Shown: positions 1 to 41,655 of the stretch, piece after piece
Position numbering within the stretch: position 1 is the first letter of the stretch
Layout of the letters: each line of letters starts with the position of its first letter
Source of the DNA: an uncultured Clostridia bacterium
GTDB lineage: Bacteria > Bacillota > Clostridia > Oscillospirales > Acutalibacteraceae
DNA length: 64,000 nt
Direction: 5' to 3'
Assembly: GCA_947170465.1 (NCBI GenBank)
Contig: CAMVTS010000002.1
Location: 54,685 to 118,684 of the forward strand
Notes under the pieces: generated by a model
The model's input: only the letters and a program-made list of their open reading frames with translations
Databases searched by the model: none
What the model was told of the DNA's origin: nothing
Position numbers and translations under genes: made by a program

Positions 1-8
1 CGGCAAAA

Positions 9-1301
9 GTGTTTGAGCGCTATGATGAGCTGCCGCTTGTCTGCCACGACACCAGCCTGTTCATCAGCGAATACGGCTTCGGCTATCGCCGGTTGGTTGA
101 CTGGATTGGCAAGGATATTAACAATCTGACGGATATCGCAGAGATTCGCTCTGTTCTGGAACGAAACCGAAAAGCGCTGGAAGAATGCGCCTGCGAAGAG
201 CTGAAGAACGCACTGCTGCACTGTGCCTGTGACCCCAAAAAGGGCGTCGCCTATGCCGCTTCCATACTGAAAAGCAGCAACACAGAATCCAAGGATATGG
301 TTAGCGCCGTTAGGGGATACCTGCTGACCAACCAACACAATCTGAAATCGGCAAGGGAAGCATTCGTGCTGAAAGAGCAGGCGCTTTACCGGGCGGTCAC
401 AGCGGAAGCAAGCGGGGAATCTACCGATATCAAAACCAAACGTCAATATCAGGAAGCGCTCCGCAGCTATTTTGAAACGCAGACAAAAATACAGATATAT
501 ACAGAGATGCAAACCTTCCTGCATACATTCGAGGGTCAAATTCAAGTGCTTTACAGGGGCGTTTTCGCTCCGCTTGCGGACATGATGGATTCTCTGGCGG
601 AAACCTTCCGTTGTAATCTGTCTGAGCTTGAAGAAGTCCCGGATGTCACGTATGATTTCAGCGTTCCGCTAATTAATCTGAATGACAAAGAATTGAAAAC
701 AGAACTGGATGCGTTGCTCGCCGAGCTTGACGCGGCGGAGGTTCTCTCGCGTCTTGTCAATAGGCTGATTGCCGACGGTGCTGTCGAACAAAGGCTGCCG
801 TCTGTTGTTTCTTCTTTCTTTACCGAGCAGTTCGGCAAAATCGCCGCTATGACCATGGATGATTATATGACAATTAAATTCGGCGTTCGCGACGAGCAGC
901 AGCTGAGCAGCCTGATTAACTACCATGTGCTGCAGACGCTCACCAAAAAAGCCGCTCCCAGGATTTGCATGAATATGCTGTCCCACGGCAATGAATTCTC
1001 CTTCTGCATCGTGCCCGAACGCGCGCCTGTTGTCCTGACGGCTGCACAGAACCTGCACGACTCCTATCCGCATCCGATTATCTTGCAAAACGCCTGCGGT
1101 GACACCATTACCATAATCAGAGAGTTCCTCGGTTTTTCGCTGTACACGCTCACGGAACTTGAACACTATCTCGCAATCTACAACACCAAGATGTTGCACG
1201 GTTTACATATCTATGAAGGAACGCCTTATGACGAACGAGATTTCAGAAAACTATACAATCTGATTCCGCTGAGCCTTCTTTCCGGTTCAAAAAACGAATA
1301 G
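9..1301 (+). CDS. Tubulin-like protein, C-terminal part (5' end outside window); paralog of the next two genes
   Basis: Frame open from the left edge; the GTG at 9 is probably not the true start. Shares with the downstream paralogs 'FAPLADMMDSLAETFRCNL' (cf. FSPLLDTLNNVAETFRYNL) and 'HIYEGTPYDERDFRKLYNLIPLSLL' (cf. HIYENSPYDERDFSKLSDLIPLSLL). Confidence 0.7.
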   Translation: MFERYDELPLVCHDTSLFISEYGFGYRRLVDWIGKDINNLTDIAEIRSVLERNRKALEECACEELKNALLHCACDPKKGVAYAASILKSSNTESKDMVSAVRGYLLTNQHNLKSAREAFVLKEQALYRAVTAEASGESTDIKTKRQYQEALRSYFETQTKIQIYTEMQTFLHTFEGQIQVLYRGVFAPLADMMDSLAETFRCNLSELEEVPDVTYDFSVPLINLNDKELKTELDALLAELDAAEVLSRLVNRLIADGAVEQRLPSVVSSFFTEQFGKIAAMTMDDYMTIKFGVRDEQQLSSLINYHVLQTLTKKAAPRICMNMLSHGNEFSFCIVPERAPVVLTAAQNLHDSYPHPIILQNACGDTITIIREFLGFSLYTLTELEHYLAIYNTKMLHGLHIYEGTPYDERDFRKLYNLIPLSLLSGSKNE

Positions 1302-1384
1302 ATTCCGTTTTTTACGAAAAAAACGACGTATGAAAAGTTTTGATTAATGATAACTTTTATTTAGAAAACGGAGGGTGTTATACC

Positions 1385-4294
1385 ATGATCTATAAACACA
1401 TTTCCCTTGCCGCGGGCGGCGGCATCATCGCCCGCAACCAGCAGGCAGAACAGGAAGAGTGCGCCAATATCTTTATCGGACTCGGCGGTACCGGTATCAG
1501 CTGTCTGAGAGAGGTCAAAAAGCAGGTCTATAACAGACTGGCTCCTGATGATCCCAAGGCGGAGATTCCCACATACGACCACATCCAGTTCCTCGCCATC
1601 GACACCGACACTTGTTCCCTCGGCGATGACGGGAGTATCAGCACGCTCGACATTGCCACGGATTTTGTCGATATCAGCTGCAGTGATATCCATGCCGTCC
1701 TCGGCAACAAGGATCCCTCTCTCCAGTGGTTCAGCGACGACATCTCCATCCTTGCCGCGGAGGCAGGCGCAGGCGGCGTCAGACAGATCGGCAGGCTGCT
1801 GTTCATGATGGAGGTCAATACTGTCGTCTCGGCAATCCGGAGAAAAATCGCCAATGCCCTCGCCGGTCTGGGAGACAATTCCGTCAATATCCACATCTTC
1901 ACCGGATTGGGCGGCGGCACCGGTTCGGGCATATTCCTTGACGTCTGCTATATCCTGCAAAAGATTCTGGATGATTTGGGGATTCTGGGCAGCGCCAACA
2001 CCTGCGGCTACTTCTTCCTGCCCGACGTCAACCTGGAAAAGGTGGAAACCGACTGCGTCAAGGAGTACATCGAGATCAACGGCTTTGCCGCCATGAAAGA
2101 ACTCGACTACTGCATGAACTTCGAGAACAACGGCGGCAGCTGGGATCAGAACTACAAGACCTTTGAGGTTCACACCAACCTGCCGCCTGTCAAGCTGGCT
2201 CACCTCATCACCGCCAAGGACGAGAAGGGCAGCGTCATTCCCGACGGCTACAACTACACGATGAATGTTGTCGTCGACTATGTCATGGGATTCATGACCA
2301 AGCAGAGTGTTAACGTCTGGAACAGAGTTGCCGGCAACTTCGTTTTGAAATCACATATCGCCACCTTCAACCGCAATGTCGTAATGCTCAACAAAGAGAG
2401 AGGCGCGTGTTACCGCTATATCGTACTTGGCGCTTCTACCGCATACATCCCCTACAAGGACATCAACTCCTATCTCACGGCAAGGATCTATGAGGCGTAC
2501 CATGCCCTGCCCAACTCCTGCCATGACATCGACGAATTCCTCAACACACACGGTCTCACCTATAAAGCGCTCCTCGACGAGATCAACCGGAATGCCGGCG
2601 CGATTCCGATGCTTGAGTTAGACCCCCGCGAGCTGTACAACCAGGTGCAGGGCATTAGGCAGCCCAACATTGTCCCGCAGCTGTTCAGCTATATGCTCGG
2701 CAAACAGCCCGAGATCATCGGCAACTATGCCAAGAACAGAGAGAGTCTGGTGCAGAACACCATCGTGTCGCTGAAGAACGCGCTGGTGGAATATGCCACC
2801 AACGCAGCAAGAGGTCCCGTCTATGCTTCGCTGCTGCTGAAGAATTTCGATAAAAACGACCGCGATATGATTGCTGTTGTTGAGGGCTATCTCGCGGAGA
2901 ACGAGCGCAACAAGGCGCAGGCAGTCGCTACCCTCGAGCTCAGAGAGCAGGAGCTTGGCGCCGCGCTCAGAGAACTCCAGCACAGCAACATACTTAACCG
3001 AAGAAGAAGGGCAAGAGAGTACACTGCTGCCGTATACGCTTACTTTACCCAGCAGCTGAGGATCCAGCTCTATGTTGAGATGGGCGAATTCCTGATGGCG
3101 TTCAAACTGCAGGTGAAGGATCTGCACGATAACTTCTTCTCTCCGCTGCTCGACACGCTGAACAATGTCGCGGAAACCTTCCGGTACAACCTGGAATTTC
3201 TGAACGAGGGCAGGTACGTCAACAACGACTACGGCATCAAGCTCGTCAGTCTCGATGACGAAAATCTCAGGAAAAACCTCGACGAAGCGGTTGAAAAGTT
3301 GGATACCACCGCTATCGTCATGGACTTCATTGCCGCCCTGATCAAACAGCCCAAGAAGTGGGAGAGCAGAAACAACGAAGCCCAGATTTCGGCAATGGTT
3401 TCCGAATTTTTCGTTCAGCAGCTGACTGCCTTCACCTCCAAGAACATCGATGAATACCTGGCGACCAAGTTCAACACCAACAGCCAGCAAGCACTCGTTT
3501 CCGCGATTTATCAAAACGTCCTGCTCAAGCTCAAGGATATGGCGGCGCCCATGTTCTGGGCGAGAAAGACGATTGACGAAAAAAGCAGAAAGGGCTATTG
3601 TTCCATACCGAATACCTCCGCAGCAATCCAGGCAGCGGTCCAACAGCTCTACGTGGTTGACAACAAGATCGACGGCAGAAGCTCTGTCGTCCCCGACAGG
3701 ATTTCCATGCTCATTTTCTACTGCGGCGTGCCGATGTTCATGTTCAAGGGCATCGACCTGTACTATCCCGGCTACTCCACCAAGGAGGACATGACCGGCA
3801 AACACATTTACGAGAACAGCCCCTATGATGAGAGAGACTTCTCCAAACTGAGCGACCTGATCCCGCTCAGCCTGTTGCCCGATGATAGAATAACGCCGGA
3901 GATACAGCAGTTTATTGATGACTACCGGGAAGCGCAGGAATTTGGAATCATCTTCAAACAATCCAAACGCGTCCCTTACCCCAGCAAGTATTATCTGCGT
4001 AAGATCGACCCGGAGGATCATCGTCAAAAAACGGAAGCTGTCCAGCAGCTTATCGGTGACAACAACACGGAGAAGGCAGAGCAGTTCCTGAACGATCCGG
4101 CGAATCACGTCCTTCAGTTCGGTGAAACTATCGAGTTGCCGAACACCGGGTGCGAAGGGTATGAAGAAAGCGCTGTGCGCGACCACGTCTTTGCTTCTCC
4201 TGCCTATACTGAGCTGATGCGCGAACAGCTGGTGCTGTGTCGTCGGTTTCGGAAAAGCATTCATAGGATAACAGAATATATTTACAGATGTTGA
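1385..4294 (+). CDS. Large tubulin-like (Tubulin_2-type) GTPase
   Basis: N-terminal 'NIFIGLGGTGISCLREVKKQV' and tubulin-signature-like 'FTGLGGGTGSGIFLDV'; RBS ggaggg before ATG at 1385. Confidence 0.75.
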   Translation: MIYKHISLAAGGGIIARNQQAEQEECANIFIGLGGTGISCLREVKKQVYNRLAPDDPKAEIPTYDHIQFLAIDTDTCSLGDDGSISTLDIATDFVDISCSDIHAVLGNKDPSLQWFSDDISILAAEAGAGGVRQIGRLLFMMEVNTVVSAIRRKIANALAGLGDNSVNIHIFTGLGGGTGSGIFLDVCYILQKILDDLGILGSANTCGYFFLPDVNLEKVETDCVKEYIEINGFAAMKELDYCMNFENNGGSWDQNYKTFEVHTNLPPVKLAHLITAKDEKGSVIPDGYNYTMNVVVDYVMGFMTKQSVNVWNRVAGNFVLKSHIATFNRNVVMLNKERGACYRYIVLGASTAYIPYKDINSYLTARIYEAYHALPNSCHDIDEFLNTHGLTYKALLDEINRNAGAIPMLELDPRELYNQVQGIRQPNIVPQLFSYMLGKQPEIIGNYAKNRESLVQNTIVSLKNALVEYATNAARGPVYASLLLKNFDKNDRDMIAVVEGYLAENERNKAQAVATLELREQELGAALRELQHSNILNRRRRAREYTAAVYAYFTQQLRIQLYVEMGEFLMAFKLQVKDLHDNFFSPLLDTLNNVAETFRYNLEFLNEGRYVNNDYGIKLVSLDDENLRKNLDEAVEKLDTTAIVMDFIAALIKQPKKWESRNNEAQISAMVSEFFVQQLTAFTSKNIDEYLATKFNTNSQQALVSAIYQNVLLKLKDMAAPMFWARKTIDEKSRKGYCSIPNTSAAIQAAVQQLYVVDNKIDGRSSVVPDRISMLIFYCGVPMFMFKGIDLYYPGYSTKEDMTGKHIYENSPYDERDFSKLSDLIPLSLLPDDRITPEIQQFIDDYREAQEFGIIFKQSKRVPYPSKYYLRKIDPEDHRQKTEAVQQLIGDNNTEKAEQFLNDPANHVLQFGETIELPNTGCEGYEESAVRDHVFASPAYTELMREQLVLCRRFRKSIHRITEYIYRC

Positions 4295-4338
4295 TTAATC
4301 AATTCACATAAAAAATCTTGAAGAGGAGAAATGTTTCA

Positions 4339-7300
4339 ATGATTTACAAAAACCTATCCATCGCCGCGGGCGGCGGCATCATCGCCCACAACCAACAGGC
4401 AGAACAGGAAGAATGCGCCAACGTCTTCATCGGACTCGGCGGTACCGGTATCGACTGTCTGAGAGAAGTCAAAAAGCAAGTCTATAACAGACTTGCTCCC
4501 GACGATCCCAAGGCGGAGATCCCCAAATACGACCACATCCAGTTCCTCGCCATTGACACCGACTCTAAATCGCTCGGCGACGACAAGAGCATCAGCACGC
4601 TCGACGTCGCCACGGATTTTGTCGATATCAGCTGCAGCGATATCCACGTCGTCCTCGGCAACACCCGCGTGCTTCGCCAGGATCCTTCTCTCCAGTGGTT
4701 CAGCGACGACATCTCCATTCTTGCCGCGGAGGCAGGCGCAGGCGGCGTCAGACAGGTCGGCAGACTTCTGCTTATCCAGAACATCGATAAGATTGTTTCT
4801 GAAATCAAGAAAAAAATCACCCTTGCGATCACCGGTCTGAGAGGCAAGCCTGTCAATATCCACATTTTCACCGGTATGGGCGGCGGCACCGGCGCCGGCA
4901 CCTTCCTGGACATCTGCTATATCCTGCAAAAGATCCTCAAGGATATGGCGCTGCTGGGCAGCGCCTACACCTGCGGCTACTTCTTCCTGCCTGACGTCAA
5001 CCTGGCAAAGGTGGAGATTGACAGCGTCAAGGAGTATATCGAGATCAACGGCTTTGCCGCCATGAAAGAACTCGACTACTGCATGAACTTCGAGAACAAC
5101 GGCGGCAGCTGGGATCAGAACTACAAGACCTTTGAGGTTCACACCGACCAGCCGCCTGTCAAGCTGGCTCACCTCATCACTGCCAAGGACGAGAAGGGCA
5201 GCGTCATTCCCGACGGCTACAACTACGCCATGAACGTTGTCGTCGACTATGTCATGGAATTCATGACCAAACAGATCGTTAACGCCCAGGACAGAAATTC
5301 AGGCAACTTCGGCTTGAAATCCCATATCGCTAACTTTGACCGCATTGTTGGAATGCTGAACAAAGAGAGAGGCGCGCGCTACTACTACTGCGTACTCGGC
5401 GCTTCCAACGCTTACATTCCTTACAAGGACATCAACTCCTACCTTGCGGCAAGGATTTTTGAGGCATACGCTACCCTGCCCAACTCCTGCCACGACATCG
5501 ACGAATTCGTCAAAACACACAGTCTTGCCTATGACACACTCTGCAATGGTATCAACAAAGAAGCCGGCACGATCCCGATGTTTGAGGTGGACGCCGGCGA
5601 GCTGTACAATCAGGTGCAGGGTATTTTGGAGCCAACCGTTATCCCGCCGTTGCTTAGCTATATGCTCGGCAAAAAGCCCGAGATCATCGGCAACTACGCC
5701 AAGAACAGAGAGAGCCTGGTACAGAACACCATCGTGTCGCTGAAAAACACGCTGACGGAATATGCCACCAACCCTGCAAGAGGTCCCATCTATGCCTCGC
5801 TTCTGCTGAAAAACTTCGATAAAAACGACCGCGATATGACCGCTATTGTCGAGGGCTATATCACAGAGAACGAGAGCAGAAAGTCACAGGCGCTTGCTAC
5901 CCTCGAGCTCCGGGGGCAGGAGCTTGGCGCCGCCCTCAGAGAACTCCAGAACAGCAACAGACTTAACCGCAGAAACAGAGCAAACACGTACGCTTCCTCA
6001 GTACACGCTTACCTCACCCAGCAGCTGAGAGTTCAGTTTTTTGTTGAGATGGGCGAATTCCTGATGGCGTTCAAGCCGCAGGTGAAGGATCTGTACGATA
6101 ACTTCTTCTCTCCGCTGCTCGACACACTGAACAATGTCGCGGAGACCTTCCGCGCCAACTTTACCGCGCTCAATGAAAGCGTGCGCGTTGAAAACGACTA
6201 CGCCATCAAGATCGTCGGTCTCGACGACGAGAGCCTCAAGGAAAGCCTCAACGCAGCGGTTGACAAGCTGGATACCACCGCTATTGTCATGGACTTCATC
6301 GCCGCCCTGATCAAACAGCCCAAGAAGTGGGAGAGCAGAAACAACGAAGCCCAGATTTCGGCAATGGTTTCCGAATTTTTCGTTCAGCAGCTGACTGCCT
6401 TCACCTCCAAGAACATCGATGAATACCTGGCGACCAAGTTCAACACCAACAGCCAGCAAGCACTCGTTTCCGCGATTTATCAAAACGTCCTGCTCAAGCT
6501 CAAGGATATGGCGGCGCCCATGTTCTGGGCGAGAAAGACGATTGACGAAAAAAGCAGAAAGGGCTATTGTTCCATACCGAATACCTCCGCAGCAATCCAG
6601 GCAGCGGTCCAACAGCTCTACGTGGTTGACAACAAGATCGACGGCAGAAGCTCTGTCGTCCCCGACAGGATTTCCATGCTCATTTTCTACTGCGGCGTGC
6701 CGATGTTCATGTTCAAGGGCATCGACCTGTACTATCCCGGCTACTCCACCAAGGAGGACATGACCGGCAAGCACATTTACGAGAACAACAATTATGATAC
6801 GAGAGACTTCACCGACCTGAGCGACCTGATCCCGCTCAGCCTGATGAGCCATGAGCAGATCACACCCAAGATCCAGCAGTTCATCGACGACTACGCCAAA
6901 GCGGTTGAATACGGTATCATCTATAAGGAGCCCAAGGGCGCTGCCGGTACGCAATTTGACTACCTGCTCCGCAAGGTTGACATGGACGACTACAACGAGA
7001 AGCTGCGCAAAATGGAAAAAACCCTGAGCGAGTGGAACATAGATCGCGCAAAAAGGTTCGTCGATGATCCCGCGAACACTGCGCCTCGTTTCTCCGATTC
7101 CATCACACTGCCGAACACCGGCGCGGAAGGCTACAAGGACGACGTCGTCAAAGATCACGTCTTCGCTTCCCAGGTGCTGACAGGAGAAATGTACAAGCAG
7201 CTTGAGCTGTGCCGCACATTACAGGCTGAATTGAAGAAGATCCAGGACAAAATATGGATAGAGGAAAACGTCAAGCGCACCATTATCGCGTTCGTCAACG

Positions 7301-7698
7301 CACTGTGCACCGGCGCCGTCTATATGTCCAAGGACGACAAATACACCTTTATGTACCTCAAGGGCGACTTTGACTTCCCGGACGAGTATACTCTGACCAA
7401 CATGGACACCAAGCCCTACGGCGATATGCTCCCGATTTACAGCGCCTTCGTTCAGTTCATGAACCTCGATCAGGAGGACAAGGACGATATCGCAGAGAGA
7501 GCCAAGATAATCAAGAGAGAAAACGAGGAGGATTGTCTTGCCTTCACCAAGAAGATCAAAGACTACCTTGAAAAGAGAGTCGATCTCCTCAAGGAAATCG
7601 CGGACGAATCCTTCAAAAGCGACAGAAAGGCTATCTATGAATTCATCAAACTGGCAGTCAGCGCTATCAGAACCTTTGAGCGTTCCCTGCTGATGTAA
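4339..7698 (+). CDS. Large tubulin-like (Tubulin_2-type) GTPase, second complete paralog
   Basis: 'NVFIGLGGTGIDCLREVKKQV' and 'FTGMGGGTGAGTFLDI'; highly similar to 1385-4294, with extra C-terminal sequence; RBS aggag before ATG at 4339. Confidence 0.75.
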   Translation: MIYKNLSIAAGGGIIAHNQQAEQEECANVFIGLGGTGIDCLREVKKQVYNRLAPDDPKAEIPKYDHIQFLAIDTDSKSLGDDKSISTLDVATDFVDISCSDIHVVLGNTRVLRQDPSLQWFSDDISILAAEAGAGGVRQVGRLLLIQNIDKIVSEIKKKITLAITGLRGKPVNIHIFTGMGGGTGAGTFLDICYILQKILKDMALLGSAYTCGYFFLPDVNLAKVEIDSVKEYIEINGFAAMKELDYCMNFENNGGSWDQNYKTFEVHTDQPPVKLAHLITAKDEKGSVIPDGYNYAMNVVVDYVMEFMTKQIVNAQDRNSGNFGLKSHIANFDRIVGMLNKERGARYYYCVLGASNAYIPYKDINSYLAARIFEAYATLPNSCHDIDEFVKTHSLAYDTLCNGINKEAGTIPMFEVDAGELYNQVQGILEPTVIPPLLSYMLGKKPEIIGNYAKNRESLVQNTIVSLKNTLTEYATNPARGPIYASLLLKNFDKNDRDMTAIVEGYITENESRKSQALATLELRGQELGAALRELQNSNRLNRRNRANTYASSVHAYLTQQLRVQFFVEMGEFLMAFKPQVKDLYDNFFSPLLDTLNNVAETFRANFTALNESVRVENDYAIKIVGLDDESLKESLNAAVDKLDTTAIVMDFIAALIKQPKKWESRNNEAQISAMVSEFFVQQLTAFTSKNIDEYLATKFNTNSQQALVSAIYQNVLLKLKDMAAPMFWARKTIDEKSRKGYCSIPNTSAAIQAAVQQLYVVDNKIDGRSSVVPDRISMLIFYCGVPMFMFKGIDLYYPGYSTKEDMTGKHIYENNNYDTRDFTDLSDLIPLSLMSHEQITPKIQQFIDDYAKAVEYGIIYKEPKGAAGTQFDYLLRKVDMDDYNEKLRKMEKTLSEWNIDRAKRFVDDPANTAPRFSDSITLPNTGAEGYKDDVVKDHVFASQVLTGEMYKQLELCRTLQAELKKIQDKIWIEENVKRTIIAFVNALCTGAVYMSKDDKYTFMYLKGDFDFPDEYTLTNMDTKPYGDMLPIYSAFVQFMNLDQEDKDDIAERAKIIKRENEEDCLAFTKKIKDYLEKRVDLLKEIADESFKSDRKAIYEFIKLAVSAIRTFERSLLM

Positions 7699-7716
7699 AA
7701 CCAAAACAGTGTATCC

Positions 7717-7758
7717 CGGCTCCGGGTATTTTATCCGGAGCCGCAGGTTCCTGTTTTT
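7717..7758 (+). terminator. Intergenic hairpin plus T-run, candidate terminator or attenuator
   Basis: CGGCTCCGG-gtattttat-CCGGAGCCG (7717-7743), flanked by AAAACAG/CTGTTTTTT. Confidence 0.6.
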
Positions 7759-7799
7759 TGTATTGTAATGTAAAATTCAACATAGAAAAGGGGAAAAAC

Positions 7800-9728
7800 A
7801 TGAATACAAAGCAGATGTTAGACAACGTCGAAACTCAGATCATTGACGGCGAAAGCAGACTGGTGCAAAACGTCGGAAACCGTCCTCACTATCCTTTGAT
7901 GGTATCCTTCTACGGTTCTGCCAAGGAAGGCTGCAGTAGCTTTTTTAATACCATTTGCGGTACCTGGACAAAACAAATCTGCGACAATCTCCTTTTTTAT
8001 CGCTACTCCCGTGCCGATAATGGGCTGGTGTTCTACCGCACCGATGCAGACGAAGAGATTCCCGAGGACACGGTGTTTCAGCAGATTACCAGGGTGACAC
8101 AGACCAGAAACATTTTTGATAACTTCAGGATGTGGTGTCTGTTTAATGTCATCGACACCTCCTATCTCAGCTTTGAGGAATTTGAGGAAGCCTACAACTC
8201 TCTGGACGACCTAAAATACGTCATTGATGATACCGTTCGTTCCATGGTCATCATTATCCTGCGCGACAGCCGTGAGCGTGACCGAAAGGAGACAAATTAC
8301 CGGATTCGCGAGTTTCTGATGCAGCCGTCAGGGTATGATAGCGTGATTCTTTTTTCTAACCGGTCCAGGGGAAATAACAGCTATCCTCTTTCGCTGCTGT
8401 ACAGAGTTGTTGCCAACATTGTGCTGCTGGCTGACAACGATGCGGTCTCTCGCATTGATGACGACAATTACCGTGAGAGAGTGTCCAAGCTCTACAGCCA
8501 AACGCCCTACACCATCGCTTTTACTTCTGTGACAAAACCCACGCGGAATATCCTCTACTGCATGACGCACAAGTTTATTACCGAAATGCAGCAGCGCCGC
8601 TCCAATGCAAAAAACAAGAACACTGACCATCATATGGAATTTATGACGCTTACTGACGTCAATAACATACTAAGTATCAGCAACAACCGTCTGATACATT
8701 TCACTGGGTTTATCAACTCGGTTCGTCAGAGAATAATCAAATCCGGGCTGGACAAAGCAATTTTTCAGTATATGCCCCAGACCCAAAAGGTGCTGATCAA
8801 TGACAACATGGTCATAAACAGCACCTATGCCGGCGTAAAGGACTGCTATCTTCCGGGCGCATTGCAGATGATGGCAAGTAGTATCTGCCGCGAGGAAACA
8901 GAGAGTGCTGAGTTCCGTCAGCTCTTCGCGGAATATGAACACAAGATTAACAGCCAGCTTAACTTGCTCAACGTAGGAAACCTTACTATGGAGCGTGTCA
9001 ACACTGCTTTTTCCAATCTGCAGTCCCTTGCAAATGTCAATGACGGAGACCTGCTTCCAGTGTATTTTCAAAATCTGGTTATTGACACGTTGGTCAATCA
9101 GTTCATTTATCCCAAATGCACGGCGCTTCTCCAGAACATCTTGGACGCCGATGTGTTCCGTCAGACCGACAAGGAGGTTGACCGTTTTATTGCGGAGGTT
9201 TCCGACCGTGTTATCTCTGCAAGTTTCGACGATATCACTAGCAAGTACGGCAATTCCATGAGCGATTTCCTGAGAACCGAGGAAGGCAACGAGTATGTTT
9301 CCCGTTTCCTGAAATTAGGCAATACTTTTGATGACCTTATGCAAGTTTTGGAGGAAGCGCTTTTAGCTGCCAACGTCTACTGCAAGGGCGAAATTAACAT
9401 GCCTTTTATTGACTTTTTTGTCATGATTCTGAGACTATCTGCCAAGTACGACATGATTCCCACACTGAAAGGAATTATGGAAGGAGAAGGCGATCAGGGC
9501 GTAATGCTCCGAGGCGCGTTTCCGGTGTTGCGTGACCTGTCTGTGTTTATGCTGCACTGTTACGACGCGCAGGGAGAAAATGCCACTGAGTTTTTCAAGC
9601 TGCTCGACGAGGCCTATAAAGACGTTTCCGCCACACAGTTCTTCAACACCGGTAATGACGACGCTGTCGACCTGCTGAAGCTGTACAGGGTAGAGGGCTC
9701 TAATTTGATTTTAGGCTTGAATGTTTAA
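7800..9728 (+). CDS. Uncharacterised ~642 aa protein with degenerate P-loop-like N-terminus
   Basis: RBS aaagggg before ATG at 7800; 'MVSFYGSAKEGCSSFFNTI' sits where a Walker A would be. Confidence 0.6.
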   Translation: MNTKQMLDNVETQIIDGESRLVQNVGNRPHYPLMVSFYGSAKEGCSSFFNTICGTWTKQICDNLLFYRYSRADNGLVFYRTDADEEIPEDTVFQQITRVTQTRNIFDNFRMWCLFNVIDTSYLSFEEFEEAYNSLDDLKYVIDDTVRSMVIIILRDSRERDRKETNYRIREFLMQPSGYDSVILFSNRSRGNNSYPLSLLYRVVANIVLLADNDAVSRIDDDNYRERVSKLYSQTPYTIAFTSVTKPTRNILYCMTHKFITEMQQRRSNAKNKNTDHHMEFMTLTDVNNILSISNNRLIHFTGFINSVRQRIIKSGLDKAIFQYMPQTQKVLINDNMVINSTYAGVKDCYLPGALQMMASSICREETESAEFRQLFAEYEHKINSQLNLLNVGNLTMERVNTAFSNLQSLANVNDGDLLPVYFQNLVIDTLVNQFIYPKCTALLQNILDADVFRQTDKEVDRFIAEVSDRVISASFDDITSKYGNSMSDFLRTEEGNEYVSRFLKLGNTFDDLMQVLEEALLAANVYCKGEINMPFIDFFVMILRLSAKYDMIPTLKGIMEGEGDQGVMLRGAFPVLRDLSVFMLHCYDAQGENATEFFKLLDEAYKDVSATQFFNTGNDDAVDLLKLYRVEGSNLILGLNV

Positions 9729-9746
9729 GAAACAAGGGAGTGTTAA

Positions 9747-10418
9747 TTGAGTATGAGAGTAGAAGTTAATAAAAGCTGCGAACAATCCTTTATCATCAAT
9801 ATACAGGAAAACAACGGAATCGTCAGGTGGGAATATGAAAGCAAAAATAAGCCGGAGCTGCTTTTGATTGTCCGGACACCGTTTGAAATAACTCCTGACG
9901 CCGACGAGATTGCACAGCTGATGAGCGAGAGGGATTTTAACGGCAGCAGTGACAACATTGTAACACTTAGCGAAGATATCCGTTGCAAGTTTCTGCGGGT
10001 TGCTCCGGGCATGAGCGGTGTCTATAACGTCATTGCCGCCCCTGCAACCTACACGGTATTTGGCTGCAGACGGGACGGCGACGGTATTGTGATTTATACC
10101 GAAAGGAATAACCGGCATCATTCCTGTTGCGTACCTGCCTTGCTGGAGTATCATGTCGATATCGAGGATCTGAAAGTTAAAGTAAGAACAGGCTTGTTGA
10201 AGTCGCGCGAAGAAGCTCACCGTTTCTCCAAAATTACCGTTACCAACAATCCCAACTATATCGAAGGGGCACTGTACTATTGCTTTGAGGGAAGCAATCT
10301 GCAGTTTCCCATCAGCAAATCCATGCTCGGAAAACCGTTCTATGTTCGTTGGTACATGGGAAAAAACCAACCAATGATTCGATCTCGCTTTAAAGGATAC
10401 CGGGCTGTAAAACACTGA
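9747..10418 (+). CDS. Uncharacterised ~223 aa protein
   Basis: Co-directional, tightly spaced ORF; no family recognised. Confidence 0.55.
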   Translation: MSMRVEVNKSCEQSFIINIQENNGIVRWEYESKNKPELLLIVRTPFEITPDADEIAQLMSERDFNGSSDNIVTLSEDIRCKFLRVAPGMSGVYNVIAAPATYTVFGCRRDGDGIVIYTERNNRHHSCCVPALLEYHVDIEDLKVKVRTGLLKSREEAHRFSKITVTNNPNYIEGALYYCFEGSNLQFPISKSMLGKPFYVRWYMGKNQPMIRSRFKGYRAVKH

Positions 10419-10429
10419 GGAGGAAAACC

Positions 10430-11962
10430 ATGAAAGATCAAGAAAAGATTATCTGTCCATACTGCTTTGCAAATTTCGATCAGAGTGAAGTGTTGTTCCG
10501 CGCGGAAACGTGCTTTACAGAGGATGATATCCTGGATGATTATGATATTGAGGTTATGCCGGACGGTCCAGAAAAAGTACAGGCAAAATTCGACAACGAC
10601 TTAAAAAAAGAGTTTCTCGCCGGGGTTCATCCCAACTATGAGCAGTTCTGGAATAGATTCAACGGAACTACCGAACAGACCAGAAAAAACAGAGCCAATA
10701 TGCACGCGCAGTTTTTTGAAAACTACCAGAAGCCGATTATCAGCCCCAGAAATCCGCGTCACGTCCTGTTTGACAACATTGGTCAAACAGGTCCCAAGCT
10801 CGACAGGGACGGTTTTCTGTCGTCCGTCACCGATCACTTTGGCAAACGCACCAGCAATCGTGTCTGTCCAGTGTGCTGTAATCCGCTTCCGATGAATTAC
10901 GGTAAGTTTCCCGTGAAATTTATCTCCATTATTGGCATCACCGGCGCCGGCAAAACTGTATACTTGTCCAGCCTGCTTGACAATATGCACATTTATGCCG
11001 GCAAAATTGGCATGACGCCACTTCCGAATGACGCGGTCAATTTCTTTATTGAAACCAATAAAATCGCCAGGGACATCACCTTGCCGCAGGGCACCCCTGC
11101 CGCGAGATTCTCGCAGCCGCTATGCTATAACCTTCAGTATTATCACAGCAAAACCCTGCGAAGGGAAACCTCGACCTTTGTACTATATGATATCGCCGGT
11201 GAGAACTGTGTCGATCCGGTAGGAATTGAAAATTTCGGTCCATTTATCTCCCGTTCGGACGGTATCATCATTCTGCAGGATCCCAAGCAGTTTACCGGCA
11301 TTTACAACGAAGCCCACAGTATGATTGACACCGTGCTGCAAACCATAACCAATCTTTTCGTTGGAAAGCAATATTGCGACATCCCGTTGGCACTTTGTAT
11401 CTCCAAGGCGGATCGTTTGATGCAGGACAATCTTTTTGAGCCGGCACTTGCCGATATGCTTTCCTCAGAAGTGCGTTCTGCGCTGGATTTCAACGGCTTC
11501 TGCGCATCCGAATACAACGAGATAAGCAAAATGCTCGATGATTTCTACTATCACCAGGATCCAGCTACTCGCGAGGCACTGAAAAACAACTTCGATAACT
11601 TCAATTATTTCGCTGTATCTTCGCTCAACTGCGAGCTGAAGGATACTGGTGCCAGAAACGAAGCCACTGACGGTGAGCCGCTGCTGACGCCTACCGAAAC
11701 ACCGCGTCCGCTTCGTATTGAGGAGCCGCTGTTCTGGCTGTTCGCCAAATTCGGCTTTATCCAGAGCGACGTGCCGATTATTGAGCACGCCATCGCGGGC
11801 AGAATTGAAAGATTGAATCAGGATTTGCATCATATGCAGATGTTATACGCGGAAGTTGACAGACAACGTTTTTCGTTGACCAGAAGAAGAAGACTTAGTG
11901 AGATTGAAGAGCAGATAAAAAGTATAAAACAGGAACTTGAGGATCTCGTTCACTCAAAATAA
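10430..11962 (+). CDS. Zinc-ribbon plus P-loop GTPase-like protein (double-GTPase/DO-GTPase2-like)
   Basis: CPYCFANF and CPVCCNPLP Cys pairs; Walker A 'IIGITGAGKTVYLSSLL'; Walker-B-like 'FVLYDIAGENC'; NKxD-like 'CISKADRL'. RBS gaggagg. Confidence 0.65.
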   Translation: MKDQEKIICPYCFANFDQSEVLFRAETCFTEDDILDDYDIEVMPDGPEKVQAKFDNDLKKEFLAGVHPNYEQFWNRFNGTTEQTRKNRANMHAQFFENYQKPIISPRNPRHVLFDNIGQTGPKLDRDGFLSSVTDHFGKRTSNRVCPVCCNPLPMNYGKFPVKFISIIGITGAGKTVYLSSLLDNMHIYAGKIGMTPLPNDAVNFFIETNKIARDITLPQGTPAARFSQPLCYNLQYYHSKTLRRETSTFVLYDIAGENCVDPVGIENFGPFISRSDGIIILQDPKQFTGIYNEAHSMIDTVLQTITNLFVGKQYCDIPLALCISKADRLMQDNLFEPALADMLSSEVRSALDFNGFCASEYNEISKMLDDFYYHQDPATREALKNNFDNFNYFAVSSLNCELKDTGARNEATDGEPLLTPTETPRPLRIEEPLFWLFAKFGFIQSDVPIIEHAIAGRIERLNQDLHHMQMLYAEVDRQRFSLTRRRRLSEIEEQIKSIKQELEDLVHSK

Positions 11963-12024
11963 AAATTGCGTAAAGCCGGTTTATGAGGCATTTCACAAAT
12001 TGTATCTACTGAAAGGAGGTTACC

Positions 12025-14367
12025 ATGGGAACAATCAAACCTATGCGAGTGATCTATACAAGGATTGGAGAACAGGAGAGCTGGAGCGGTTGGAATGTCG
12101 CAGGCTTTACGCCTGACGCAACGCCGGAGGTGACGGGCAGCTGCACCAGCCGGCAGGGAAAAAACTCCTCAAGTGCCAAATTTATGTATGATCTTCTACA
12201 TCCAGCCAAGGGCGAATCAAACGAATCCGCAAAAGAGGTGTACGAATTTTTCTGCACGACAAATCCCGCCAAAAGCAACATTTTCTCTTTCACCAAGGCG
12301 ACGTTTGGTTTTTTGGACGCTTTGGGACGTCCGCAGATGAAGGCGTACAGCGTTGTGATGGCTGAGCCAGCAAACCATCTGCCGCCGTCTTGTCTTCCGA
12401 ATTTGCTGACGATTGACAAAAGATGTTTTGATGACTTTGCACTTAATCTGCCGCTGCTGGAAAGTGCAAAGGGCAAAAGCGTCAACCTCAGTGAAGTGCA
12501 GACGCAGCTGGAATCCAAAGAATATACCTGCGGGGAGGATTTTCTGACAGAAGAGATGGTTGGCAAGTTGTTTGGCAGCCGCGCTGTCTATGAGGATTTT
12601 ATCCGATGCGTATACTGGAATCTTTCCTTCAACTCCTCGTCCTCTGTCTTTGTTCAGACAGACGGTGAGCTGGACACCTGTATTAATCTGTTTCTCACGG
12701 CATTTTTCTCGGTTATCTATCCGTACCGGACAGCAATGAGCTTCCGTACCTTTGATTTTCAGGACTCCGGCAACCAACCCACGCTGGTATTCTGCCGTCA
12801 GATTCCCGAAGGCGTCCGGTACTTTGACACGCAGACCGGTGAGAATAATATTCTGAACGACAAAATAAAGAGAAAAATCAATAGAAAGGCTTTCACCTAC
12901 TATCCGGAGCATCTGGGCGAGCCTTCTGCAGAAAATTTCTTTGCGGTTCTCGACAGTAAAATGAACAGTATGGGCAGGCGGTTCTCCACGGAAATCCGCG
13001 ACCTTGAAACCGCGACGACGCTCGTGACGGATGAGTTGGATGATAATGTCAGCATGTCTGAAACGGAGCTTCTGAAAAAAATCATCAGCTATTGTGATAT
13101 GCCCACTGATGACACTATTGACGCAAAGATTGCCCTTCTCATTGAGCAGGTATTGGATGAAAATATTATGCTCAACGAGGATATCCGCAGGCACATCAAT
13201 AACCGCATGAGCGCCACCTCCTCTGACGAACTCATCAGAGCCGGTAATATCCTGACCGTCACCACGCTTCTTTCGCTTCCTCAGGAGGACGCTATCTGCC
13301 AGCTGGGCGAGCTGTATGAAAGCAGTACGCAGTATAAGGACATTGTGTCAGTTCTCATGCAAAAGGAGAATGGCGCCGATCTCGTGGATGCTTTCTATGC
13401 CAGTCTGGCAGAAGAATGTCCGGCAGAGATGGCAAAAGTGCTGATTATATTAAGCAAGATTCTTATTGCTGGCAAGTTGCCGAAGGCAATGAAGGCGATT
13501 AAGGACAAATGTTTGGAAATCGGCATCAGTATTAACAAACGGTTTATGCAGCAAAAAACTTCGATTGTTAAAGACATGGAAGACTACGAAAAATTCCTTT
13601 CGGTTACCATTCCCCGCGGAGATGAACGTGAAAGTATGCTCAAAGCCGTCAAAAGTGATTTCTGGAAGCGATTTTCAGCAACAAATTTCACCTATGACAA
13701 TCAGGCGACCTACCGCTATATGTCCTGCTCTAACCCAAGGCAGTTTCCGAAGGAAGTATTCGCAAAAAGCAATTTTTACAATTCGCTGTTTGAGGTGTTC
13801 AAGACATCAGAAAAGATGAATCCCAACACCGTCCGTTCCTTTGCCAACAAGCTCAGGGACGCCGAAAAATCGGGAATCATTGAGCCTGACGACAAGCAAC
13901 ATCTGGTCAAGGAGATGCAGCATTACTGCGTTGATTTCTGTGACACAACAAAGGGATTGGATTTCTGGATTGAACTTAGCAAGCTACGTGGTCAGCGGCA
14001 GTGGCTTCCGTTTCTTTTCCATACCGGAATCGCGATGTTTTCAGACCGGGATTTATACCGCCGTGGTCTGGAGGAGTCCGACAATATGGAGGATTACAAT
14101 TTTCTCGACGCCTATCTCCGCAGTCTGGAGGATTACGCACTGATCAACGATTCTTCAAACGTTCGTACCACGCTGGAACTCACCAGAGAGTTTAAAAAGC
14201 AAAAGGGCGGAAAGCCTGCGAAAAAGCATGTGCCATCGAGCAGAAAAACGTCTGAAATCGACATCATGAGTTACAGTAATGAACATAAAAGACAGCACCA
14301 TATTCATGAGGAAACTAAAAGTAGTAATCCAATATCCGGAATAAAAAAGTTTTTCGGAAAAAAATAA
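12025..14367 (+). CDS. GTPase-associated protein 1 (GAP1)-like protein
   Basis: N-terminus 'VIYTRIGEQESWSGWNVAGFTPDATPEV' resembles the GAP1-N type; directly downstream of the P-loop GTPase; RBS aaaggaggt. Confidence 0.5.
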   Translation: MGTIKPMRVIYTRIGEQESWSGWNVAGFTPDATPEVTGSCTSRQGKNSSSAKFMYDLLHPAKGESNESAKEVYEFFCTTNPAKSNIFSFTKATFGFLDALGRPQMKAYSVVMAEPANHLPPSCLPNLLTIDKRCFDDFALNLPLLESAKGKSVNLSEVQTQLESKEYTCGEDFLTEEMVGKLFGSRAVYEDFIRCVYWNLSFNSSSSVFVQTDGELDTCINLFLTAFFSVIYPYRTAMSFRTFDFQDSGNQPTLVFCRQIPEGVRYFDTQTGENNILNDKIKRKINRKAFTYYPEHLGEPSAENFFAVLDSKMNSMGRRFSTEIRDLETATTLVTDELDDNVSMSETELLKKIISYCDMPTDDTIDAKIALLIEQVLDENIMLNEDIRRHINNRMSATSSDELIRAGNILTVTTLLSLPQEDAICQLGELYESSTQYKDIVSVLMQKENGADLVDAFYASLAEECPAEMAKVLIILSKILIAGKLPKAMKAIKDKCLEIGISINKRFMQQKTSIVKDMEDYEKFLSVTIPRGDERESMLKAVKSDFWKRFSATNFTYDNQATYRYMSCSNPRQFPKEVFAKSNFYNSLFEVFKTSEKMNPNTVRSFANKLRDAEKSGIIEPDDKQHLVKEMQHYCVDFCDTTKGLDFWIELSKLRGQRQWLPFLFHTGIAMFSDRDLYRRGLEESDNMEDYNFLDAYLRSLEDYALINDSSNVRTTLELTREFKKQKGGKPAKKHVPSSRKTSEIDIMSYSNEHKRQHHIHEETKSSNPISGIKKFFGKK

Positions 14368-14382
14368 TTTCAGGGTAGAACA

Positions 14383-15432
14383 ATGAAAAAAATAAAACGA
14401 GAAGTTGATTACAAAAGTCTGCTTTATCCCGACAGGCTCTATGCTGGTATCGATCAGACTCTAAATACCCTACTGTCTGAAAGAACCCTGCAAATACAGA
14501 ATATCCATACGCAGCAAAATTACATGGCAATGCGTATCAACACGCCGCTAAATGCACTGACAAATGATTTTTTTAAGTCTAAATGGCGTTTGTCGATTGA
14601 GAATCCCAACTTCCAGCATTTTGTATGGCCGGTAGACCTAGTTATGCTTAACAGTCCCAAACCGATATGCTGTCTTGTATTTAAAATAGTTCCGTCAAAA
14701 GGGTTCCATTCGCTTTCCGAAATCTCTCAGCGCCCTCATACGCTGGGATTGGAAAATGAGCTGGCACGCAAAATCGCGCTTGGACTGATTGAGGCGCAAC
14801 ATTTCATTGAAGAAAAAAAATATCTTTTCTTTGGCATTGACGACGACAATATCATGGTTCGGGATGGCGGTGACGAGCTGCTGATACTGACGCACGAGTT
14901 CCTGCTGCCTGACAATCAGCTTGAGATTTACTTCACTGAAAAAGAGTACTTTTCTGAGCTGCTGGATCCCTTCCATTACCATAATGCGGAATCCATTGCC
15001 AATGGCAGGAATATCTATAAATTCGATGCTTTGTCAGAATATATTGCCTTTTTATCCCTGTTGTTCAGACTTTTGATTGGCATCTATCCCTTTGAGGGAC
15101 CGTATATGGCGGAGTATGAGTATAACACCTCCAGCGCGGACAACGTCAACTGGATTACGCGCTATCTGCAGAACCCTGTGTTTGTTTTCGATTTGCAAGA
15201 CAAGAGCAACTCTCTGACAATGCTCAATAAGTACCAGATAAACTGTGAAAGATGGGACAAGCTCGGCAACAATCTGCAGACTATGTTTTTGGATACATTC
15301 GGAAGCGATGGTATTGTCAGGCGTGTAGACACAGAGCACCGTTATACGGCGCAAGAGTGGCAACACGCAATTGAGGAGCTATTCTTCAAAGAGGATATCC
15401 GGCATTACGTTACGACGGTTCAGGAGAGTTGA
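14383..15432 (+). CDS. Protein-kinase-fold protein, probable pseudokinase
   Basis: 'LGLIEAQHFIEEKKYLFFGIDDDNIMV' aligns to the catalytic-loop region; 'IAFLSLLFRLLIGIYPFEGP' matches the kinase C-lobe LLFRLLtG.hPFEG pattern. Confidence 0.5.
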   Translation: MKKIKREVDYKSLLYPDRLYAGIDQTLNTLLSERTLQIQNIHTQQNYMAMRINTPLNALTNDFFKSKWRLSIENPNFQHFVWPVDLVMLNSPKPICCLVFKIVPSKGFHSLSEISQRPHTLGLENELARKIALGLIEAQHFIEEKKYLFFGIDDDNIMVRDGGDELLILTHEFLLPDNQLEIYFTEKEYFSELLDPFHYHNAESIANGRNIYKFDALSEYIAFLSLLFRLLIGIYPFEGPYMAEYEYNTSSADNVNWITRYLQNPVFVFDLQDKSNSLTMLNKYQINCERWDKLGNNLQTMFLDTFGSDGIVRRVDTEHRYTAQEWQHAIEELFFKEDIRHYVTTVQES

Positions 15433-15492
15433 GCGCAACGTCATGATGATATTCACGAAAGCTGAACTATAACGAAAAGGAGAGTTGAAAAA

Positions 15493-16560
15493 ATGTTTGG
15501 TGAAGCTAGACTTGTCAGCATGAAATGCCCGGATTGCGGCGACCATTTGGTTCCGCACCGTGAGATGCCCGGATTCTGGTACAGCCCAAGCTGCGGAGGA
15601 ACCTACGTAAAAGATAACAGCGGCAATCTATTCAAGGTCGAAATTTCCGGCAAAGTCGAAACCTTTGTCGGCGATACAGAGCGCGAACGTCACGCTGAAA
15701 ACGCAAAGCGGCTCCTCGATTTGGACCAGTACATACGCGCTAAGTCGGAATTTGACTATCTGATTGATAATTTTCCGGAAGACTACCGCGGTTGGCTCGG
15801 TTCTTACATGATTCCCTTCGCAATTTACGCGCATACCAGCAAATGGCATAGAGAGTTTTCAGGATTATTAAGCAGCGCTGTCCGGTTGAACCGCGAAGCT
15901 ACGCTGAACCATCTGGAGCGCTTCTTCAAAATTTACGGCGCGCACATCCGTTTGAAAGATGACAAGCGCACATCACTGGATTTGGCTTTTAATCCTTTAA
16001 AGGCTCGGACCCTTGATGATTTTACCAGCTGGTTGCTGTTTGACGGTTTATCAACTTTCCTGGAGCTTGAACACCAACCGCTGACAGCACTCTTGTATCA
16101 GCTATCTTCTGAATACTACGAGCAGATGATAGAAGGCAAGATTCTTCCGGTTTATTATAACAGATTACCCGAAAATCTGAACAAAGACGCGTTTATATCG
16201 TGTGAGAATATTACAGCAGAATCCAACGAGCTGGTTTTTCTTTTTTCGAGCTTCGGCTGTACAATCAAAACCAGAAAGCGCTACAAAGAATCCAAGGATT
16301 TTGATATTGTTGTTATTTCGCCGTTCGACACAAAAAATGAAATAACATTAAGCTCGAATCGCGTAAGTCATTCATTTACCTTATTTGGAAAATGGCTGTA
16401 TCTACAAGGAGAAAGCAGGTTCATCCTCTTGCCGCGCAGCCTTACCCAAAGTGACGTATGGCGATTCGGCGGTCGTTGTCCTTATTGCGGAAGTAACTTC
16501 AAGGGCATTTTTACCAAGGTTTGCCCCAATCCGCAGTGCGGCAGACCAAAAGATTACTAA
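15493..16560 (+). CDS. Uncharacterised protein with N- and C-terminal zinc ribbons
   Basis: N-term 'MKCPDCGDHLVP...YSPSCGGTYV'; C-term 'RCPYCGSNFKGIFTKVCPNPQCGRP'. Confidence 0.6.
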   Translation: MFGEARLVSMKCPDCGDHLVPHREMPGFWYSPSCGGTYVKDNSGNLFKVEISGKVETFVGDTERERHAENAKRLLDLDQYIRAKSEFDYLIDNFPEDYRGWLGSYMIPFAIYAHTSKWHREFSGLLSSAVRLNREATLNHLERFFKIYGAHIRLKDDKRTSLDLAFNPLKARTLDDFTSWLLFDGLSTFLELEHQPLTALLYQLSSEYYEQMIEGKILPVYYNRLPENLNKDAFISCENITAESNELVFLFSSFGCTIKTRKRYKESKDFDIVVISPFDTKNEITLSSNRVSHSFTLFGKWLYLQGESRFILLPRSLTQSDVWRFGGRCPYCGSNFKGIFTKVCPNPQCGRPKDY

Positions 16561-16608
16561 ACAAAGCAGATACCGGCGTATTTGCTTCTGCTTTCAAGGA
16601 GATTTCGC

Positions 16609-17928
16609 ATGATTTGTAGAAATTGTGGTAAAGAAAACGCTGACGGCGTAAAATACTGCTTTTACTGCGGTGAAGACATGACTGCTCCGCCTCCTCCGGA
16701 GCCAGAGCCGGAGCCGCAGTCAGTGGTACCTGAGAAGCAGGTGATGCCTGTCGCGAAGCCGAAAAAGAATATTAAGCTGATTGCCGCCATCATCACCGTG
16801 TCTGCGCTGGCATTTATCGGCGGCATCGTGGCGATTGTGCTCAGCATGAACAGCCACGTCGCGCCCGTGAAGCCGTCAATCGCTGCCACTGGTGCCGCGG
16901 ACGTGTCGCAGCAATCAGAGGTTTCAGCAACAGAAGCGCCCAAAACGGACGCTCCCAAAAAGATCTACGCCAATATCAACACGGTCAAAACCGCTTTGGG
17001 TGACAGCGACCTCGAGCAGCTGCAGAGCACGCTGAAAGCCAAGAGCAGCGCAACCTCCGTCAATGTCAAGCTGATGCTGGACAACAGCCTGTCCTCTGGC
17101 GACGTACAGAAAAAAGCCGAAAGCGCCTGTAAAACCGAATGTGGCGACAACGGTATTCTTCTCACCGTAAACGACAAGACTTACGCGCTGGGCATCAGTG
17201 CTTCGGGAAAGGGTGGTGATTTTCTTCCCGAGAACCTTCGCCAGAAAATCTTGAAAGATGTGGCAATCAAATCTGGCGGCTCCGCTGTCAGCATAGTTTC
17301 CGACGTGCTCAGTGCGATTCCCAACAACAAGAAGGACGCTGATTTGTACCGATTCAAACGTCGCGACGGCTCAGAGCAGATTGTATATGCCAACAGCAGC
17401 AGCGGCACCTTGACCTTGCTGGAATGGGACGGCTATACGCCAAAAAAATTGTTCCAGACGAATACCGTCTACTTCGGAAAGGACGGACTGACTGACTCTC
17501 CGAGAGAAGGTCTGTCCGCTACACCAAAAGGTGAGTTCCGGCTTGGCTTTGCCTTTTCGACACAGTCGCTCAGCACCAAGCTTGATACCATGACGATTAC
17601 CGACGGAACTGTTTGGGTTGATGATCCGGATTCGGATTATTACAATACGGTTCAGCACGGTTCCACCTCGAACCCGCCTTTGTGGTCGAGCGCAGAGAAC
17701 ACCTACAGCATCTTTTCCAGTGGAAGAAACTACGCATGTATTCTTATTGAGCACAATGGCGACGGCTTTACCAAAGGCGTCAGTTCAAAGGGCTCCTGCA
17801 TGTATTTGTCAGGCAAAAACCAAGATGTCGGTACCAGCTACGGTGACGTCAATATTACTGCCTCCGATATGCGCAAGCTTCTTTCTTATCTTGACAGAAA
17901 CAAAAATCCCTATATCTTTATTAGTTGA
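16609..17928 (+). CDS. Membrane-anchored zinc-ribbon protein with degenerate L,D-transpeptidase-like C-terminal domain
   Basis: 'MICRNCGKENADGVKYCFYCGEDM'; TM 'LIAAIITVSALAFIGGIVAIVL'; C-terminus aligns with the next gene (WVDDPDS...W.SAE...NYA..I) but lacks its His and Cys. Confidence 0.55.
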   Translation: MICRNCGKENADGVKYCFYCGEDMTAPPPPEPEPEPQSVVPEKQVMPVAKPKKNIKLIAAIITVSALAFIGGIVAIVLSMNSHVAPVKPSIAATGAADVSQQSEVSATEAPKTDAPKKIYANINTVKTALGDSDLEQLQSTLKAKSSATSVNVKLMLDNSLSSGDVQKKAESACKTECGDNGILLTVNDKTYALGISASGKGGDFLPENLRQKILKDVAIKSGGSAVSIVSDVLSAIPNNKKDADLYRFKRRDGSEQIVYANSSSGTLTLLEWDGYTPKKLFQTNTVYFGKDGLTDSPREGLSATPKGEFRLGFAFSTQSLSTKLDTMTITDGTVWVDDPDSDYYNTVQHGSTSNPPLWSSAENTYSIFSSGRNYACILIEHNGDGFTKGVSSKGSCMYLSGKNQDVGTSYGDVNITASDMRKLLSYLDRNKNPYIFIS

Positions 17929-17938
17929 GCACAGAAAT

Positions 17939-18862
17939 ATGAATCATTTCAAAGAATCGCCTACCCGTCAGCCGGATTCCGGAGCGCCCAAAAAGAAAAA
18001 ACCGCCGGTTGTTGCCGTTATTGTACTGTCAGCCGCAGCACTGCTGATTGCCGGCTGTATCGTGGCGCTGATTGTCATTAACATGCCGTCAGAAGATAAT
18101 CGGAATGTTTCTGCGACGCAGAATATCACTGCAGCCACAACGCTCAGTGTTCCGGTCACGTCCGCTGCCTCCGGTCAGACAGTGCCTTCCGCTTCATCTG
18201 AGGCCAATAACACGTTGGAGCCGTCCGCGAATGATTCTGTTGAATCTGCCGCTCCGACAGCGCCGCAGACATTAGCAGAAGCCGTTGAGGCGGTCGGATT
18301 AACGTTGGAGGATTTGCCCGGAAAGCAGATAGTAGTGGTCGATTCAATTAATACTAGCGCCATTATCACCTTCTACGAAAAAAAGGATAACGCATGGGAA
18401 CAGCTGGAGGACATGACCGTCTTATCTGCCTATGTCGGCAGACAGGGCGTCAGTGAAGCCGTCAGCGAATATGAAGCCTATACTCCCCTCGGCATCTACG
18501 CCCTGGGAACATGCTTCGGCATCAACGAAAATCCCGGAACCGTTATGCCTTATTTTCAGGTGACGCCGGAAAGCTACTGGGTTGATGACCCGGATTCCGC
18601 ATTTTATAACCGCCATGTGGAAGGTACGGAGAACGCAGACTGGAAATCTGCCGAGCATCTGATCGATTATAAGCCGTCCTATAACTATGCGGTTGAAATC
18701 AGGTACAATGTTGATCCCGTTGTTCCGGGAAAAGGCTCTGCCTTCTTCTTGCACGTCGGTAGTGCGCCTACTGCCGGCTGCGTTGCCATGCCGGAGGAAA
18801 ATATAATTCAACTTCTTCGCTGGCTCGATTCAGAAAAAGATCCTCATATCATTTTAAAGTGA
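17939..18862 (+). CDS. Membrane-anchored L,D-transpeptidase (YkuD-like)
   Basis: ATG at 17939, in frame with the longer track ORF from 17618; TM 'VVAVIVLSAAALLIAGCIVALIVI'; catalytic-like 'FFLHVGSAPTAGCVAMPEENI'. Confidence 0.65.
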   Translation: MNHFKESPTRQPDSGAPKKKKPPVVAVIVLSAAALLIAGCIVALIVINMPSEDNRNVSATQNITAATTLSVPVTSAASGQTVPSASSEANNTLEPSANDSVESAAPTAPQTLAEAVEAVGLTLEDLPGKQIVVVDSINTSAIITFYEKKDNAWEQLEDMTVLSAYVGRQGVSEAVSEYEAYTPLGIYALGTCFGINENPGTVMPYFQVTPESYWVDDPDSAFYNRHVEGTENADWKSAEHLIDYKPSYNYAVEIRYNVDPVVPGKGSAFFLHVGSAPTAGCVAMPEENIIQLLRWLDSEKDPHIILK

Positions 18863-19520: not shown

Positions 19521-19529
19521 ATAGACGAT

Positions 19530-38031: not shown

Positions 38032-38044
38032 GCAGGAGGACACT

Positions 38045-41635: not shown

Positions 41636-41655
41636 AACGGAAGTGAAAAATTAAT

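Follow-up and report, generated by a model that had tools for sequence, protein, structure and literature searches.

Among the computationally described conflict systems of bacteria, those that pair a DO-GTPase with GAP1-N2 are built from a constant core and variable effectors, and one firmicute theme among them carries two tubulin genes (Kaur et al. 2020, PMC7159879). The firmicute subtype also has two vWA genes, one fused to YtkA and the other encoding a transmembrane (TM) protein with an extracellular vWA domain, as well as a component of FNIII repeats; active kinases belong to a separate actinobacterial theme (PMC7159879). Loci combining FtsZl1, vWA, GTPase and kinase genes have been predicted to function in membrane remodelling (Makarova and Koonin 2010, PMC2875224). 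DO-GTPase/GAP1/tubulin systems occur widely among Firmicutes and are, in the literature searched, computational predictions so far. Here we describe a gene cluster of this kind, ending in a pair of L,D-transpeptidase (LDT) genes, in a 64,000-nucleotide (nt) stretch of an uncultured gut-type Clostridia bacterium of the Acutalibacteraceae (assembly GCA_947170465.1, contig CAMVTS010000002.1, 54,685-118,684). This whole stretch is called the window, and positions refer to it unless prefixed by L004, the same-contig DNA including sequence upstream of the window, which is used for genes lying outside it.

The cluster is a genuine operon-like unit. Its genes run, all on the plus strand and with intergenic gaps of about 10-101 nt, in the order vWA, TubA, TubB, TubC, P3, P4, DO-GTPase, GAP1, PK, ZR8, LDTd and LDT. 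A first-pass annotation of the window from its letters had counted about ten close same-strand reading frames and knew of no characterised system made up in this way. The strand and the spacing were right, but the unit begins upstream of the window, at the vWA gene (L004:16885), and P3 and P4 had not been listed. The core does have a precedent, being the published firmicute GAP1-N2/tubulin theme (PMC7159879). The starts of TubB, TubC, LDTd and LDT were re-read by eye. In a promoter and terminator scan, terminator-like sites were not more frequent than in shuffled sequence, and transcript ends were not indicated.

By its predicted proteins, the cluster belongs to the GAP1-N2/DO-GTPase tubulin systems and overlaps the FtsZl1 loci (PMC2875224). 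Like the systems of Kaur et al., it has a zinc-ribbon DO-GTPase followed by GAP1-N2, tubulin-domain proteins, a membrane protein with its vWA domain outside, and a constant core with variable parts. Unlike their firmicute theme, it has one vWA gene beside the core rather than two, a difference in a subtype feature and not in the whole GAP1-N2 class; it also has a standing pseudokinase, three Tubulin_2 copies plus P3, and the LDT pair as its tail. Relative to that paper, novelty is confined to the pseudokinase and the LDT tail; the main text of the paper does not contain the words "YkuD", "transpeptidase" or "pseudokinase" (PMC7159879). With the FtsZl1 loci the cluster shares PF13809 proteins with GGGTG loops and a long C-terminal part, a vWA protein with a MIDAS, a diverged GTPase and a kinase-fold gene. 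It differs from them in that the kinase-fold protein appears dead, in having GAP1, zinc-ribbon and LDT genes that are undescribed there, and in lacking OmpA (PMC2875224). We tentatively read the cluster, at a little under an even chance, as a clostridial variant of the GAP1-N2/DO-GTPase/tubulin conflict systems, for which a vWA-GTPase-tubulin-LDT mechanism is proposed below. The link to biological conflict suggested by the first-pass annotation finds support both in this class membership (PMC7159879) and in an island shared with BREX.

Core proteins and their conservation

The vWA protein (L004:16885-18855, outside the window; VWA PF00092, E 4e-13) has a signal peptide, an extracellular vWA domain with a DSTDS MIDAS-like motif, one C-terminal TM helix and a cytosolic tail. 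It is followed by the 796-aa TubA (L004:18896 to window position 1301, the part at 1-1301 being C-terminal), TubB (1385-4294) and its paralogue TubC (4339-7698). All three match Tubulin_2 (PF13809, E 1e-36 to 4e-59), as had been expected of three tubulin-like proteins. The GGGTG[SA]G loop ascribed to them is intact only in TubB and TubC: TubB has the T1 loop GLGGTG and the T4 loop GGGTGSG, TubC has an intact T1 loop and the T4 loop GGGTGAG, and the T4 loop of TubA is the degenerate GLSGNLGSG. Full-length tubulins retain GLGGTG and [GS]GGTG[SA]G, and proteins of about 790 aa in Bacilli do not, nor does P3. The DNA of TubB and TubC is 99-100% identical across about 450 bp (about 3311-3760) and 75-91% identical in the adjoining parts, which may reflect recent gene conversion or an effect of assembly.

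P3 (642 aa, 7800-9728) is, with moderate confidence, a degenerate tubulin partner, a tubulin fold being likely rather than proven. It aligns with the motif-less Bacilli protein of about 790 aa at an hhalign probability of 99.2%; for that protein against true tubulins the value is about 90%, and P3 by itself gave no significant sequence alignment with tubulins. GTP-binding loops were not found in P3, and GGTG occurs in 0 of 33 homologues. The AF2 model (pLDDT 87) retrieves mostly tubulin, CetZ and TubZ structures from the PDB by Foldseek, with probabilities up to 0.99 but E > 0.001 and low TM-scores, and comparison with a viral structure library was ambiguous. The alternative of a P-loop GTPase was rejected on the missing Walker A motif, the homology to the second Bacilli protein and the predominance of tubulins among the Foldseek PDB matches. 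P4 (9747-10418), a small protein of beta-rich look directly before the GTPase, occupies the position of a protein of about 212 aa in Bacilli loci; it is co-located with the core and, compared with the FNIII-repeat component of the Kaur et al. systems, has no Pfam match.

The P-loop GTPase of the first-pass annotation is a DO-GTPase2 (10430-11962; PF19993, 32.7 bits against a cut-off of 27) with a CxxC...CxxC zinc ribbon, the Walker A motif GITGAGKT, the Walker B motif YDIAGE with its Glu, and SKxD. The YDIAGE, GK[ST], [TSN]KxD and CxxC pairs are found in nearly all of its 71 homologues. The GAP1 protein (780 aa, 12025-14367) lies downstream of it and does not match GAP1 domains by itself, but homologues aligned with it do, GAP1-M in 12 of 25 and GAP1-N2 in 6 of 25 (best E 1e-6). 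An N2-type N-terminal domain followed by GAP1-M is thus assigned through relatives, in agreement with the earlier call. The next protein, PK (14383-15432), indeed has a kinase fold, its family profile matching PDB kinases at E 8.5e-12. In the alignment the beta3 Lys is replaced by Arg, the HRD Asp by Gly and the DFG Asp by Thr; with all three active-kinase residues replaced, PK is predicted to be a pseudokinase, and some relatives retain one of the three. Scanning the core proteins against NCBIfam and PADLOC yielded no useful names.

The order vWA, tubulin(s), P3, P4, DO-GTPase, GAP1 and PK recurs in Clostridia, Lactococcus hodotermopsidis, Atopobiaceae and Bifidobacterium, and the core is colinear in more than 25 distant loci. 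The grouping of the core is therefore not a matter of chance. Loci of Paenibacillus, Bacillus and Brevibacillus have, in turn, a vWA, a tubulin of about 1129 aa, the motif-less protein of about 790 aa, a second vWA, the protein of about 212 aa, DO-GTPase and GAP1, an arrangement that matches the firmicute tubulin theme (PMC7159879); the second vWA gene is found in Bacilli and some Clostridia, and none adjoins the core here. The co-occurrence in other genomes whose absence the first-pass annotation had named as refuting thus holds for the core, in order and in distant genomes; the tail accompanies the core only here and in one other genome. Presence is patchy: the DO-GTPase occurs in 2 of 150 genus genomes, and GAP1 in 2 of 59 relatives with the window's own genome counted.

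A mobile element could use such tubulins for TubZ-like DNA segregation or for positioning of the phage-nucleus kind, and the cluster does lie on an integrated element, while other bacterial tubulins segregate plasmids. We consider this very improbable, as the match is to Tubulin_2 (the FtsZl1 family) and not to TubZ, many Bacilli and Clostridia also carry the core on large chromosomal contigs, neither a TubR-like gene nor a centromere repeat was noticed next to it, and such a model would leave GAP1, vWA and LDT without a function. Another, distant kind of locus (L039-L047, L049, L050, L052, L055, L056) encodes, in this order, a vWA-like protein, a tubulin of about 1200 aa, a protein of about 660 aa and one of 1400-1900 aa, and gave no recognised DO-GTPase match.

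The L,D-transpeptidase tail

The core is followed by ZR8 (15493-16560), a cytosolic protein with zinc ribbons at its N- and C-terminus, LDTd (16609-17928) and LDT (17939-18862). LDTd consists of a zinc ribbon, a TM helix, a domain at residues 121-245 that is well folded in the model and matches TPM weakly, and a pseudo-L,D-transpeptidase domain. The zinc-ribbon proteins predicted at first sight are three, namely the GTPase, ZR8 and LDTd. The two membrane-anchored transpeptidase-like proteins were correctly described as such, since LDTd and LDT each have one N-terminal TM helix and extracytoplasmic LDT domains, but they differ in their active sites. LDT (YkuD, PF03734, E 1.9e-7) retains the catalytic His and TAGC and is apparently an L,D-transpeptidase with an intact active site; a phmmer search of the PDB with it gave no match. 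LDTd has lost both residues, the His position not being His and the Cys position being Asp, in both orthologues.

In more than 20 relatives PK is followed instead by a Sel1-like protein whose TM helices are C-terminal, and then by a polytopic membrane protein. This pair is missing only in the window locus and in L059 (Ruminococcaceae bacterium P7), where ZR8, LDTd and LDT stand in its place. On a tree of P3, DO-GTPase and GAP1 these two genomes are sisters (0.975), and the next branch, L060, carries the usual membrane pair; the LDT tail is therefore a derived replacement. A near-constant core whose tail was replaced once on the tree conforms to the constant-core and variable-effector pattern of Kaur et al., and suggests that machines of this kind may have a swappable end. 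ZR8 as a diverged form of the Sel1/TM protein was also considered and rejected, as profile comparison gave no match. In the P7 genome three more Tubulin_2 genes lie downstream of the tail (G453:C60:53735-68024).

The functional system may instead stop at the pseudokinase, with ZR8, LDTd and LDT as mere downstream neighbours, since the LDT pair occurs without the system in many family genomes and the three genes accompany the core in just two. This seems unlikely to us: L059, a separate genome with different upstream genes, has the same three genes in the same order after the core, the tail gaps are short (10-60 nt), and the tail sits where the 20 or more relatives carry their two other membrane genes.

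A search with LDTd found transpeptidase-domain relatives in 26 of 300 family genomes, in most of the cases read at the head of a tandem LDT pair. Among the 15 loci that were read, His is missing from the first partner, and Cys is present in 12 of them. A PP2C gene lies just upstream of the pair in at least five of the 15 (L233, L234, L236, L242, L246), and in L234 a Ser/Thr kinase gene sits between PP2C and the pair; the PP2C of L236 and L246 and the kinase of L234 were checked against the PDB, and the remaining PP2C genes were read by eye. Like these two-gene modules, the window pair joins a pseudo-LDT to an LDT whose His and Cys are both intact. Unlike them, its pseudo-LDT has lost both residues, where the Cys is mostly kept elsewhere, and its switch is DO-GTPase/GAP1/tubulin rather than PP2C. 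Since the pair is present in other family genomes, it predates its use here and has the look of an exchangeable, portable output module, which may also serve other switches. Two further loci, L239 and L240, have LDT pairs beside ATPase-like and helicase-like genes and one more gene, with the look of candidate defence operons.

Island setting and proposed mechanism

The cluster sits in an island of about 64 kb bounded by tRNA-Ala, together with BREX, an AbiH fragment, recombinases and a TIR protein. The tRNA-Ala gene (L004:11919-11994) comes straight after thiN, and a 53-bp direct repeat of its 3' end (98%; 55961-56013, plus strand) forms an att-like right boundary; an additional partial repeat copy lies at L004:12568-12677. 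Two congeners have ordinary genes behind this tRNA-Ala, an empty site, and GC content is 0.53-0.57 before the tRNA gene and 0.40-0.51 after it. BREX is complete at 36827-53212, with BrxA, BrxB, BrxC, a further gene at 41656, PglX, PglZ and BrxL. The AbiH fragment, its C-terminal part only (19380-20135), is directly downstream of the cluster and beside group II intron ORFs. Several elements may have accreted in the island, and joint movement of the cluster and BREX is not claimed.

The anatomy of the proteins fits an envelope-coupled assembly, with vWA outside the cell, tubulins, GTPase, GAP1 and pseudokinase in the cytosol, and the LDT domains beyond the membrane. The idea of a cytoskeleton-like or switch assembly acting on the envelope, raised in the first-pass annotation, agrees with this topology; its sensing of a trigger is something we infer. 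The membrane vWA protein would sense a surface or envelope event and pass the signal to a DO-GTPase-GAP1 switch. This switch would control GTP-dependent tubulin assembly, in which TubB and TubC may bind GTP, TubA and P3 may be motif-poor partners, and the pseudokinase may be an adaptor. The cytosolic zinc ribbons of ZR8 and LDTd would couple the assembly to the extracytoplasmic pseudo-LDT, which may recruit or hold its partner LDT. Once released, LDT would cross-link or otherwise alter local peptidoglycan, and the most likely purpose would be to block phage infection or spread, or to kill the infected cell. What the sequence itself shows is the parts and their order, the kept or lost active sites, the topology, the exchanged tail and the location in an island with BREX. 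We regard as rather doubtful a wider form of the scheme, in which a GTP-switched tubulin assembly with a vWA receptor controls LDT through the pseudo-LDT as the anti-phage output and the pair is portable behind either DO-GTPase/GAP1/tubulin or PP2C/kinase.

A non-defensive machine of the envelope or of cell morphology, in the sense of the membrane remodelling of Makarova and Koonin, whose LDT pair would serve ordinary wall building, is possible though less likely than not. It would account for the vWA/FtsZl1/GTPase/kinase composition from which remodelling was predicted (PMC2875224), for the outward-facing vWA and LDT, given that LDTs remodel the wall in growing cells, and for the near-identical order of the Bacilli form in most Paenibacillus and Bacillus loci read. 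It does not sit well with an absence from 148 of 150 genus genomes, with the tRNA-bounded island shared with BREX, or with the non-enzymatic membrane proteins that replace LDT in most close relatives.

Several points weigh against the conflict-system reading itself. LDTs also have housekeeping roles, and three further YkuD genes are present in the window genome. The transpeptidase part of LDTd is not confidently modelled (pLDDT 50), and the tail could be mechanistically unlinked to the core. BREX co-residence is seen in one genome, and the flanks of 20 relatives hold few clear defence genes (an AbiE pair, PDC-S23, PDC-S05), too few for enrichment. PADLOC gave no meaningful match for nine operon proteins and the vWA protein, and no experimental work on DO-GTPase/GAP1/tubulin systems, or on any member, was found in the literature searched. 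The locus nevertheless offers an assayable enzymatic output in wall cross-linking, natural versions with and without LDT, and a defence-island setting, and the conflict hypothesis is thus directly testable. If true, a pseudo-LDT/LDT pair recurring behind different switches would represent a new kind of cell-wall effector module.

Other genes of the island and genome are noted here. The TIR protein (32822-36376, minus strand) has 1184 aa, a TIR domain (PF13676, E 2e-8) and no PADLOC match; read by eye, it has a P-loop/NACHT-like stretch and BspA-type leucine-rich repeats, and thus looks NLR-like. Just before the vWA gene (L004:13909-16534) lie genes for two zinc-ribbon-TM-PASTA proteins that end in YARHG or SH3 and for a C39-like lipoprotein, none of which accompanies the core in L059. 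Elsewhere in the window's own genome (G000:C70, L248), a secreted YkuD gene is directly followed by a gene for a TIR protein.

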